From a virus: DNA of 23,513 nucleotides. Positions 1-5,371 of this stretch are shown here, piece by piece (the first letter of the stretch is position 1; every line of letters starts with the position of its first letter). The position numbers and the translations under genes were made by a program. The stretch is from the IMG/VR virus record IMGVR_UViG_3300037507_000049, positions 1 to 23,513 of that record, one strand, 5' to 3'. The notes beneath the pieces were generated by a model. The model was not told the DNA's origin, made no database searches, and saw only the letters and a list, made by a program, of their open reading frames with translations.

Positions 1-104
1 TGTGCAATGTCACGGATGCGCGACTCGGTCTTGCCTTGCTGATAACCAACGTCGCGGAGGGATTGCAATTTTAAGTCTTGCTCGACTTTCACTGGCTTAG
101 CCAT
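1..104 (-). CDS. Small hypothetical protein, C-terminus cut by window edge
   Basis: This is a leftward open frame starting at the ATG complementary to 102-104 and running off the window. The 34 visible codons begin MAKPVKVEQDL and are hydrophilic, with no recognisable domain, signal peptide or membrane segment. An AAGGGG Shine-Dalgarno lies about 8 bases upstream of the ATG. The upstream region carries a near-consensus sigma-70-type promoter and a hairpin also found before the next leftward gene (307-534), which supports expression and common control. The function is unknown. I infer an early or accessory phage gene from its orientation opposite to the structural genes. Confidence 0.7.
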   Translation of the reverse strand, partial: MAKPVKVEQDLKLQSLRDVGYQQGKTESRIRDIA

Positions 105-127
105 AGTGTTACCCCTTGGGATTGAAT

Positions 128-144
128 GTCAGAATCCGTCTGAC
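128..144 (-). repeat. Leader hairpin GTCAGA-N5-TCTGAC, copy 1
   Basis: A perfect 6-bp inverted repeat (128-133 with 139-144) encloses 5 bases. It lies between the leftward promoter and the ATG at 104, so it would sit in the 5' untranslated RNA. The same element, with 18 of 20 bases identical including flanks, occurs at 551-567 before the other leftward gene. It could be a repressor site or an RNA hairpin. Confidence 0.7.
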
Positions 145-156
145 TCGGTACTAATA

Positions 157-200
157 CTTATACGCTTGCGCTATGACATTGTCGAGGATTTCACGGTAAC
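157..200 (-). promoter_or_regulatory. Leftward sigma-70-type promoter P1
   Basis: On the minus strand TCGACA (180-185) is followed after exactly 17 bases by TATAAG (157-162). Each hexamer is one base off consensus. Six bases upstream of the -35 is the box GTTACCGTG (192-200), which is found at the same distance in the second leftward promoter (598-641). The expected start of transcription is near 150, giving a leader of about 45 bases to the ATG at 104. Confidence 0.72.
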
Positions 201-205
201 GTGAA
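190..205. promoter_or_regulatory. Palindromic operator-like site
   Basis: TTCACG (190-195) and CGTGAA (200-205) form a 6-bp inverted repeat around GTAA, just upstream of the P1 -35 hexamer. Its core overlaps the GTTACCGTG box shared with P2. It has the geometry of a dimeric regulator site; the binding protein is unknown. Confidence 0.4.
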
Positions 206-273
206 CCCCTAATTAGCGACGCGCACACACAGCACGCGCACGGACACATAACTGGCATCAAAGATGATGGGCC

Positions 274-303
274 AAAAAAAGAGCAGGGGCCGAAGCCCCT
301 GCT
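274..303 (-). terminator. Intrinsic terminator of the leftward 75-aa gene
   Basis: Read leftward, a 9-bp GC-rich stem (303-295 with 290-282) is closed by a TTCG tetraloop and followed by a run of T residues (the A-tract at 274-280). It starts only four bases beyond the stop codon of the gene at 307-534. This is a classic rho-independent terminator. Confidence 0.92.
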
Positions 304-306
304 TGG

Positions 307-534
307 TTATGCTAGCGTTGCTCTGCTAGCTACTAACCGACCGAACCGCGTCGTGATCCTCACGATGTGGGGGCCGAAATCCCTGCCATAACAGCGCATC
401 CACTCCATCGCGTCGGCTTGTGTCCAAGCGCGGTGGGTGATCTTGATGTCACGTTCAAGGTCGATGACCTCGACGCGGTAGGGTTTAGCGGCGGCGCGGA
501 ATGCTTGCTTGAGCAAGCTAGTGACTTTGACCAT
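307..534 (-). CDS. 75-aa basic hypothetical protein
   Basis: This leftward gene starts with ATG at 534 and has a strong AGGAGG Shine-Dalgarno six bases upstream. It is bracketed by its own promoter (598-641) and an intrinsic terminator (274-303), so it forms a complete transcription unit. The protein is rich in Arg and aromatic residues and starts MVKVTSLLKQAF. A central stretch around residues 22-50 (VEVIDLERDIKITHRAW, then WMRCYGRDF) suggests a small alpha/beta fold. It has no membrane segment, and I recognise no family. It may be an early phage gene. A longer open frame on the opposite strand lacks a start signal and is not believed. Confidence 0.75.
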   Translation of the reverse strand: MVKVTSLLKQAFRAAAKPYRVEVIDLERDIKITHRAWTQADAMEWMRCYGRDFGPHIVRITTRFGRLVASRATLA

Positions 535-550
535 GATGGCCTCCTGTCAT

Positions 551-567
551 GTCAGACTCCCTCTGAC
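551..567 (-). repeat. Leader hairpin GTCAGA-N5-TCTGAC, copy 2
   Basis: This is a perfect 6-bp inverted repeat (551-556 with 562-567) with a 5-base spacer, immediately upstream of the AGGAGG of the 75-aa gene. It is the second copy of the element at 128-144. A further 5-bp inverted repeat (575-579 with 586-590) lies between it and the promoter. Confidence 0.7.
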
Positions 568-597
568 TTGGGTTATGGGTTGCTTCCCATGACTTTA

Positions 598-641
598 CTT
601 ATACCAACCCCGACGGCCTTTGTCACGTATCCCACGGTAAC
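598..641 (-). promoter_or_regulatory. Leftward sigma-70-type promoter P2
   Basis: On the minus strand GTGACA (621-626) and TATAAG (598-603) are separated by exactly 17 bases, each one mismatch from consensus. The GTTACCGTG box (633-641) lies six bases upstream of the -35, the same spacing as in P1. The promoter should drive the 75-aa gene from a start near 591. Confidence 0.75.
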
Positions 642-2860: not shown

Positions 2861-5371
2861 ATGGCTACAAGCTTTTTTGACAAAGCACTAAATCAAGCAC
2901 CCCTTGGGTTGCAGAACGAGAATCTGGTCATGGAGCCAGACATCGAGATTGAGATCGAAGACCCTGAGTCAGTATCAGTAGGTCTTGGTGGTCTAGAGAT
3001 TGTGATCGGCAAAGAAAAAGAAGAGGAAGGGTTTAACGACAACCTTGCCGAAGACATGGACCCCAAGGAGCTAGCCACCCTTGCTGAAGATCTGTGTAGT
3101 GATTTTGAAGATGACATTTCATCCCGCAAAGACTGGATGCAGACCTACGTCGATGGGTTGGATCTGTTAGGACTTAAGGTTGAGGATCGCACAGAGCCTT
3201 GGCCGGGGGCTTGTGGTGTGTACCACCCCTTGCTGACAGAAGCTGTGGTGAAGTTTCAGGCCGAGACCATCATGGAGACATTTCCAGCACAAGGTCCGGT
3301 GCGTACCAAGATCATTGGTGAAGAAACTAAAGAGAAGAAAGAGTCTGCTATGCGTGTGCAGGCAGATATGAACCACCAGCTCACTGATGTGATGATTGAG
3401 TACAGACCTGAGCACGAGAAGATGCTGTGGGGACTGGGGCTGGCGGGTAATGCGTTTAAGAAAATCTACTTTGACCCAGGGCTTGATAGACAGACGGCGA
3501 TGTATGTGTCGGCTGATGATCTTGTGGTGCCATACGGTGCTGCGAATATTGAGACAGCCGAGCGTGTTACGCATGTTATGCGTAAGACTAAAAATGAGCT
3601 AGAGCGGCTAATGGATAGTGGGTTCTACGTTGATGTAGAGCTTGAAGATCCTAGCGATTCGCTTGATGAAGTAGAGAAAAAGATCGCAGAAAAGATGGGG
3701 TTCAGGGCAACTACTGATAACCGGTACAAGTTGCTTGAGATGCACGTAACCCTTGATCTTCCAGGCTTTCCTGACAAAGACGAAGATGGCAAAGAGACTG
3801 GACTGGCTGTTCCGTACGTCATTACGATTGAGAAATCAAACAGTAAGATCTTAGCGATTAGACGCAACTGGAACCCAGACGATGAGTTAAAGAAGAAGCG
3901 TCAGCACTTTGTCCACTACCCCTATATCCCAGGCTTTGGCTTTTATGCTTTCGGGCTTATCCACTTGATTGGTGGGTTTGCTAAATCGGGAACGTCGATT
4001 CTCCGTCAGCTTGTTGATGCAGGCTCACTTGCCAATCTCCCAGGTGGATTTAAAACCAAGGGGATGCGGACTAAGGGTGATGACACGCCGTTTGCTCCGG
4101 CTGAATGGCGCGATGTGGACATAGCCTCGGGTGCTCTCAAAGACAACATCATGCCGCTTCCGTACAAGGAGCCGTCGCAGGTGTTGGCTGCACTCATGGA
4201 CAAGATCATCGACGAGGGTCGCAGGTTCGCCTCTGCTGCTGATCTTAAAGTCTCTGATATGTCGGCTCAGTCTCCAGTTGGGACGACGTTAGCGATCCTA
4301 GAGCGCACACTGAAGGTGATGTCGGCTGTTCAGGCGCGGATTCACTATTCGATGAAGCAGGAGTTCCGGCTCTTAAAAACCATCATCGCTGATTACACGC
4401 CTGAGTCTTACGACTACGAGCCAGTGGATGGTCGCCCCAGAGCTAAGAAATCAGACTATGAGAATGTCGATGTAATACCGGTCAGTGATCCGAACGCAGC
4501 GACAATGAGTCAGAAGGTTGTGCAGTACCAAGCAGTTATGCAGTTGGCTGCTACTGCGCCGCAGTTATACGACTTACCCTATCTTCATAGGCAGATGTTA
4601 GAGGTTCTTGGTATCAAAAACGCCGAGAAGCTCGTGCCGATGGAAGATGATATGAAACCGACCGACCCAGTATCTGAGAACATGGACATGTTCCAAGGCA
4701 AACCGGTCAAGGCGTTTATCTATCAAGATCACGCCGCACACATCACAGTGCATATGTCAGCACTGCAAGATCCAATCACTGCTCAAGTTCTTGGTCAGAG
4801 TCCAAACGCTCAGGCTATGCAAGCAGCATTTATGGCGCACATTGCCCAACACTTTGCCTTTCAATACCGTAAAAACATCGAAGACAAACTCGGGGTTCCC
4901 TACCCTGCACCCAACGAAGAACTGCCCGAAGAGATGGAGGTCGAGATCTCCAGACTCGCTGCCGCAGGAGCACAGAAACTCTTGCAATCTAATCAGGCGA
5001 TGGTTCAACAAGCCCAGGCTCAACAGCAAGCACAAGATCCAATTGTGCAGATGCAGCAGCAAGAACTTCAGCTCCAAGCTCAAGAACTGCAACGCAAAAC
5101 CGCTAAAGATCAGATGGACGCTCAACTCAAAGCAGCCCAGATTGATACCGAGCGTATGCGGATTCAGAACCAGTCTGAGATCGACGGTGCCCGATTGGGT
5201 GCTCAGATCGCAAAAGATCAGATGGAGCAGGAGTTCCAAGCAGGCGTTGAAGCCGTTCGCAATGAAATAGAGGGCACGCGGATTGGTGCTGATATAGCTC
5301 GGAATATTGCTGCGATGCAGCAACAACGTGAATCAGTAACTAAAAAAGCTGTTGGGGAAAGTAAAGAATGA
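2861..5371 (+). CDS. Portal protein, large P22-like type
   Basis: The portal is the dodecameric ring at one head vertex through which DNA enters and leaves. At 836 aa it belongs to the large podovirus class. An acidic N-terminus (residues 24-90) precedes the portal core. The core includes a YHPLLTEAVVKFQAETIME region at about 121-139, a GLGLAGNAFKKIYFDP region at about 191-206, and a long stretch to about 600. From about residue 690 to the end the chain is strongly Gln/Ala-rich with heptad character, consistent with the long helical barrel of P22-type portals that projects into the head. AGGA precedes the ATG at 2861, nine bases after terL stops. The last four bases (ATGA) overlap the next gene. 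Confidence 0.9.
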   Translation: MATSFFDKALNQAPLGLQNENLVMEPDIEIEIEDPESVSVGLGGLEIVIGKEKEEEGFNDNLAEDMDPKELATLAEDLCSDFEDDISSRKDWMQTYVDGLDLLGLKVEDRTEPWPGACGVYHPLLTEAVVKFQAETIMETFPAQGPVRTKIIGEETKEKKESAMRVQADMNHQLTDVMIEYRPEHEKMLWGLGLAGNAFKKIYFDPGLDRQTAMYVSADDLVVPYGAANIETAERVTHVMRKTKNELERLMDSGFYVDVELEDPSDSLDEVEKKIAEKMGFRATTDNRYKLLEMHVTLDLPGFPDKDEDGKETGLAVPYVITIEKSNSKILAIRRNWNPDDELKKKRQHFVHYPYIPGFGFYAFGLIHLIGGFAKSGTSILRQLVDAGSLANLPGGFKTKGMRTKGDDTPFAPAEWRDVDIASGALKDNIMPLPYKEPSQVLAALMDKIIDEGRRFASAADLKVSDMSAQSPVGTTLAILERTLKVMSAVQARIHYSMKQEFRLLKTIIADYTPESYDYEPVDGRPRAKKSDYENVDVIPVSDPNAATMSQKVVQYQAVMQLAATAPQLYDLPYLHRQMLEVLGIKNAEKLVPMEDDMKPTDPVSENMDMFQGKPVKAFIYQDHAAHITVHMSALQDPITAQVLGQSPNAQAMQAAFMAHIAQHFAFQYRKNIEDKLGVPYPAPNEELPEEMEVEISRLAAAGAQKLLQSNQAMVQQAQAQQQAQDPIVQMQQQELQLQAQELQRKTAKDQMDAQLKAAQIDTERMRIQNQSEIDGARLGAQIAKDQMEQEFQAGVEAVRNEIEGTRIGADIARNIAAMQQQRESVTKKAVGESKE

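Follow-up and report, generated by a model that had tools for sequence, protein, structure and literature searches.

Repeated putative promoter-terminator cassettes with palindromic operator-like sites and structured leaders, proposed recombination nodes in uncultivated water phages

The two leftward genes at the left end of a 23.5-kb virus contig (the window, i.e., the whole stretch of 23,513 nucleotides analyzed) stand behind repeated modules, which are probably insulated promoter cassettes under operator control, with structured leaders and a second role as recombination nodes. The parts of the cassette, their fixed spacing, their recurrence in relatives, the covariation of leader stems, and a crossover-like junction are directly visible in the compared sequences. 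In the proposed organization, intergenic cassette copies would divide the leftward gene block into separate transcription units, each running from the intrinsic terminator of the preceding gene through a CCAGTTATNTNTC...GTGCGCG element to a composite palindromic operator (CGCTAATTAGCG, then ATTCACG-N4-CGTGAA). A promoter, TNGACA-N17-TATAAGTA, phased to that operator, would then lead into one or more 5'-proximal hairpins, a ribosome site, and a single small gene.

Results

The terminase, portal, and capsid module of the window runs rightward; to the left of that gene row, and divergent from it, are the two leftward genes. The duplicated arrangement described in the original prediction is real: two minus-strand modules, at 596-641 and 155-200, share GTTACCGTG, a -35-like GACA, a 17-base spacer, TATAAGTA, and a leader hairpin. 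The pattern GTTACCGTG-N6-NNGACA-N17-TATAAG has two exact matches on the minus strand (157-200 and 598-641), compared with 0 in 100 dinucleotide shuffles, and in each module TA comes directly after TATAAG. The 17-base spacers of the two modules are unrelated to each other, as had been noted. GTCAGA-N5-TCTGAC occurs exactly at 128-144 and 551-567, and the claimed identity of the hairpin regions (AGTCAGAGGGAGTCTGACAT and AGTCAGACGGATTCTGACAT) in 18 of 20 bases is correct.

All features of the two units lie on the minus strand. Module 1 opens with the GTTACCGTG box (633-641), an operator right half whose left half is replaced by G-rich sequence, and continues with a core promoter (596-626; GTGACA at 626-621, a 17-bp spacer, and TATAAGTA at 603-596) that is kept in 12 relatives. 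Its leader contains hairpin 1a (ATGGG...CCCAT, 575-590; predicted fold and covariation), which starts approximately at the predicted transcript start some 7 nt past TATAAG, and hairpin 1b (GTCAGA GGGAG TCTGAC, 551-567; exact match and covariation). The sequence AGGAGG (540-545) is the putative ribosome-binding site of gene 1 (307-534), an open reading frame of 75 aa that starts at 534 and has no family match. Unit 1 ends in a predicted intrinsic terminator, AGCAGGGGC TTCG GCCCCTGCT CTTTTTTT (274-303; 282-303 in the terminator scan), and relatives look alike before the element that follows. This conserved element, CCAGTTATGTGTC CGTGCGCGTGC TGTGTGTGCGCG (220-255), was delimited by comparison of its copies in relatives and is the proposed recombination node. 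Comparison with relatives also identified CGCTAATTAG (209-218) as a degenerate version of their CGCTAATTAGCG palindrome. In module 2, palindrome scans located the operator-like site TTCACG-TTAC-CGTGAA (190-205), centered at about -47.5, ahead of a core promoter found by pattern match (155-185; TCGACA at 185-180, a 17-bp spacer, and TATAAGTA at 162-155) and a leader hairpin, GTCAGA CGGAT TCTGAC (128-144; exact match and predicted fold). A weak second hairpin overlaps the putative ribosome-binding site AAGGGG (112-117) of gene 2 (1-104), which starts at 104, continues past the left window end, and belongs to family X (~218 aa in relatives). The terminator, the CCAGTTAT element, the left half of the module 2 palindrome, and hairpin 1a had been missed in the earlier description.

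By terminase and portal, the nearest annotated relatives are phage DSL-LC04, Pelagibacter phages HTVC027P/HTVC023P, and Planktothrix phage Pag-Yong1; the phage family carrying the cassettes is an uncultivated one of water phages. An exact-pattern scan of IMG/VR returned 13 contigs, 12 of which are true relatives with the module; the remaining contig (L009) was set aside as probably a chance match, with TTGACA/TATAAT, an unlike leader, and the other cassette parts absent. Conservation in close relatives, by which the original prediction proposed to stand or fall, is thus seen in 12 relatives, and its expectation of further copies to the left was borne out by a third module 860-1140 bp further left in 9 of the 12 (mismatches allowed). 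Two of the other three contigs end short of the site, and G002 is without it. Contigs carry 2-4 cassette copies, and an extra ORF between modules 1 and 2 is present in some relatives and absent in others. Also supported is the view that the shared parts are selected functional parts, and that the genes form a small regulon with one common upstream box. The cassette had no match in 50,697 annotated phage records, nor did the GTDB genome collection match the CCAGTTAT pattern. A genome scan for the host with the family X paralogue alignment also found no match.

The shared upstream box is common to both modules, as predicted, but it is not the whole site: GTTACCGTG makes up the right half of TTCACG-N4-CGTGAA, a 16-bp palindrome whose distance from the -35 is constant, and in modules 2 and 3 the box region reads GCGATTCACG-N4-CGTGAA. 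Module 1 retains the promoter-proximal half only and has no CCAGTTAT element. Well-covered relatives have about five palindrome copies each, mostly in the leftward block (reversed-pattern control, 0-1), and a 14.2-kb block holds 11 sites with at most two mismatches, compared with 0.7 expected. The second palindrome, CGCTAATTAGCG, often lies upstream of the main one. Across 14 non-redundant cassettes, a set gathered at the fixed spacing and to which a looser scan added L059 only (with a 16-bp spacer reading), the consensus holds for both distances, palindrome to -35 and -35 to -10, and divergent contigs keep the same spacing. Because two or three promoterless copies lie in the region past the last gene, the palindrome is not merely a promoter part. 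After the last family X gene, there is a largely non-coding AT-rich region with repeated GTTCCAATGTTCCA / ACGTTCCAACGTTCCA iterons (L018:3329-3950; L016:10390-11090, minus strand; L054:3100-3620; L055:2118-2650; L051:3860-4500). Operator palindrome copies also occur in most of these iteron regions, and the region is a possible replication origin. The whole genome of Pag-Yong1 (OL906435.1) contains 33 copies of a different 15-bp palindrome, GGTTCAGNCTGAACC (at most one mismatch; reversed-pattern control, 0), seen in locus L047 mostly between leftward genes and possibly representing a parallel operator or cassette system.

The core promoter consensus is TNGACA-N17-TATAAGTA. In a 65-kb relative, it was found at the modules only, plus one site with three mismatches, compared with two control matches. 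Sigma-70 promoters have a -35/-10 spacing of 16-18 bp and need T at position 6 of the -10 (TAnnnT). The cassette promoters have the 17-bp spacing and GACA, and TATAAG is without that T, so they do not qualify; a sigma-70 promoter scan found none at the modules. Neither G001, G007, nor the window yielded a sigma-70 region 2 or region 4 domain; a search for T7-like RNA polymerase was uninformative, as none of the control genomes gave a match. Pelagibacter phage HTVC027P has a duplicated promoter-like module of its own, TTGACA-N17-TAGGAT (L049:4671-4739 and 5221-5291), with an inverted repeat and a shared ribosome site, ahead of two small genes.

Every unit after the first starts behind an intrinsic terminator and the conserved element, which reads TTGAWRCCAGTTATNTNTC-N-GTGCGCG. 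Scanning IMG/VR with the CCAGTTAT element alone retrieved 21 stretches, divergent contigs among them, in which nearly all copies lay behind a terminator and most lay ahead of paralogues 28-52% identical. In most of these stretches the full series recurs, from terminator and element through palindrome and promoter to the hairpin leader and a family X paralogue; in L050 and L051 the palindrome is absent, with element and paralogue both present. The GTGCGCGTGC-TGTGTGCGCG part of the elements (e.g., 220-242, minus strand), an alternating purine-pyrimidine stretch between terminator and promoter, is prone to Z-DNA. One gene unit (~830 bp) is missing from G002, and the junction falls inside the CCAGTTAT element. 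Relative to the best-matching relatives, the left flank of the G002 element after gene 2 is 97-98% identical to copy 3 and the right flank 97-99% identical to copy 4, with an overlap of 46 bp within the element; this deletion is seen in a single metagenomic contig, for which a short-read assembly join at the repeat is the main alternative. Across genomes, copies 2 and 3 also show exchanged variants immediately downstream of the element. Both the junction and the exchanged variants fit homologous recombination between cassettes.

Leader stems differ between relatives. Modules 1 and 2 carry GCCAAA/TTTGGC with GTCAGA/TCTGAC, or GTCAGA/TCTGAC with GTCGG/CCGAC, the module 2 stem being GTCGG/CCGAC in five relatives. 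In the module 1 leader, 95.8% of cells were paired with 11 double-changed cells (0/500 shuffles as high), and its count of three double-changed pairs was not above shuffles (312/500). In the module 3 leader, 93.1% of cells were paired with four double-changed pairs. Slid controls dropped to 16-45%, and the covariation draws on few lineages. Hairpin 1a has one G-C to A-U double change and a G-U; hairpin 1b has two double-changed pairs with 100% of cells paired, and its loop GGGAG stays constant while the stem shifts from GTCAGA/TCTGAC to GCCAAA/TTTGGC. In the cassettes examined, the predicted leader folds have a stem close to the predicted start. Folding energy averaged z = -1.58 over 39 leaders, single leaders often not being significant; the window leaders gave -2.1 and -0.9, or about -0.5 with longer ends. 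Rfam searches of the leaders returned no model at gathering score and nothing credible. Because the stems change with compensation, it is the RNA fold that appears conserved and not the hairpin sequence, and the 18-of-20-base match is not a shared recognition sequence, since modules 1 and 2 have different stems in most relatives. The sharing of GTCAGA by the two window hairpins is partly coincidental. Of the "RNA or operator" hairpin in the original prediction, the RNA part is favored, and the differing stems argue against a DNA operator or a common sequence-read hairpin. The loop GGGTT is common to wholly different 7-bp stems in L053/L054 and L055, with CCC directly upstream of the stem, possibly reflecting a short loop-upstream pairing or a loop-binding protein; GGG-CCC pairing was dropped as a claim for being too short.

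The genes driven by modules 2 and 3 encode paralogues of ~210 aa (family X) that are 52% identical, and module 1 drives the 75-aa gene, unrelated to family X. Tandem family X paralogues (L018:1511-2170, L018:2644-3270, and homologues; alignment A3) are ~210 aa and 28-52% identical. Gene 1 and family X had no match in PHROGs or Pfam, and the confident family X model (mean pLDDT 89) had no structural match in the libraries searched; family X is possibly a new fold.

Discussion

A dimeric phage regulator would bind the palindrome just upstream of the -35 and is most likely an activator, given the center at about -47.5, the strict phasing, and the retention of the promoter-proximal half when the other half is lost. 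An activator would also explain polymerase recruitment, since TATAAGTA is not canonical for sigma-70 and no sigma domain was found in three genomes; host RNA polymerase would then transcribe the cassettes, perhaps early in infection. Candidate winged-helix proteins for the regulator role are encoded at L016:1690-2118 and L016:2476-2904. It is unlikely that the palindrome is instead a repressor operator, through which a phage repressor jointly silences otherwise constitutive promoters, as lysogeny or early shut-off circuits do. One block does hold multiple identical palindromes, some promoterless, much like those of dispersed-operator phages, but the site lies strictly phased upstream of the -35, not over the promoter, and no integrase or repressor context was seen in the stretches read. 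We hold it rather doubtful that the cassettes define a phage-specific promoter class (CGCTAATTAGCGATTCACG-N4-CGTGAA plus TNGACA-N17-TATAAGTA) at which host polymerase needs a phage activator, which would also bind the palindromes of the GTTCCA-rich region past the last gene and link transcription of the paralogue array to replication, with the repeats keeping the array evolving.

For the leaders, we favor hairpins that would protect the 5' end of a short mRNA and shape translation. Loops GGGAG and CGGAT, with AGGAGG/AAGGA downstream, recall sites of a CsrA/Rsm-type translational repressor (GGA in the loop, a second GGA at the ribosome site), as does the invariance of the module 1 loop despite the stem change; such a role is nonetheless very unlikely, as the loop is CGGGTT in five relatives and GGGTT, ACTC, or AACG in others, and module 3 is without a GGA loop. 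HK022 put RNAs, ~70 nt with two stem-loops at the 5' end of a phage transcript (PMC9378689), resemble the module 1 leader with its two 5'-end stem-loops followed by a terminator. Yet put RNA keeps RNAP-contacting sequence features (PMC9378689), whereas cassette leaders keep the fold only, are shorter, vary freely in sequence, and are laid out differently in modules 2 and 3. Read-through of the inter-unit terminators would be unnecessary because every gene has its own promoter, and put-like antitermination is thus highly improbable. Simple descent, with units that arose by recent tandem duplication and shared parts that persist without selection, is barely credible, and conservation across divergent contigs already refutes it in large part. 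The paralogy of genes 2 and 3 does imply that their cassettes share ancestry, but the palindrome, spacing, and TATAAGTA persist while genes have diverged to 28-52% identity, stems change compensatorily, and in module 1 the same box and core stand ahead of an unrelated gene.

Activators of the Mor/C type of phage Mu are dimeric and bind a dyad just upstream of the -35; the cassette dyad is placed alike, its sequence differs, and no Mor/C homologue was identified. PeSLs, as cited in PMC4503421, are composite motifs of T4-type phages that unite promoter and terminator (Arbiol et al. 2010; Comeau et al. 2014). As cited there, they resemble the cassettes in setting a promoter and a stem-loop terminator between small genes, with repeats across a plastic region, and were proposed to mediate gene shuffling. 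Here too, promoter and terminator lie together intergenically (terminator 282-303, promoter 155-185; repeated in relatives) in multiple copies within a plastic small-gene region. Compared with PeSLs as cited there, the cassettes sit in a different phage lineage, have the promoter TNGACA-N17-TATAAGTA, and add a palindromic operator, a CCAGTTAT/GTGCGCG element, and a structured 5' leader. Neither T4-type myovirus affiliation nor PeSL sequence was found, terminase and portal being nearest to HTVC027P, DSL-LC04, and Pag-Yong1. The two work alike, yet no tested sequence or lineage is common to both, and we therefore do not file the cassette as a PeSL. In cluster K mycobacteriophages, SAS/ESAS repeats likewise stand ahead of many small genes, and their imperfect inverted repeats were suggested as protein-binding sites or promoters (PMC3203893). 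The 17-bp ESAS arms adjoin the start codon and vary in ways that give no support to an RNA hairpin (PMC3203893); in the cassette, by contrast, the palindrome lies upstream of the promoter and the leader stems covary. The 17-bp inverted repeats by the start codon and the SAS 13-mer were not found; site, position, and sequence differ.

The cassettes may both control genes and permit their gain and loss, since G002 looks to have lost a gene between copies; through homologous recombination, the repeats would allow the loss, gain, or duplication of gene units. If this is right, promoter-terminator cassettes that act as regulators and recombination nodes have arisen outside the T4-type phages, in an uncultivated group and with an added palindromic operator. 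The motif gives a concrete handle for finding further members, and the fast-diverging paralogue array of unknown fold would itself be an object of study.
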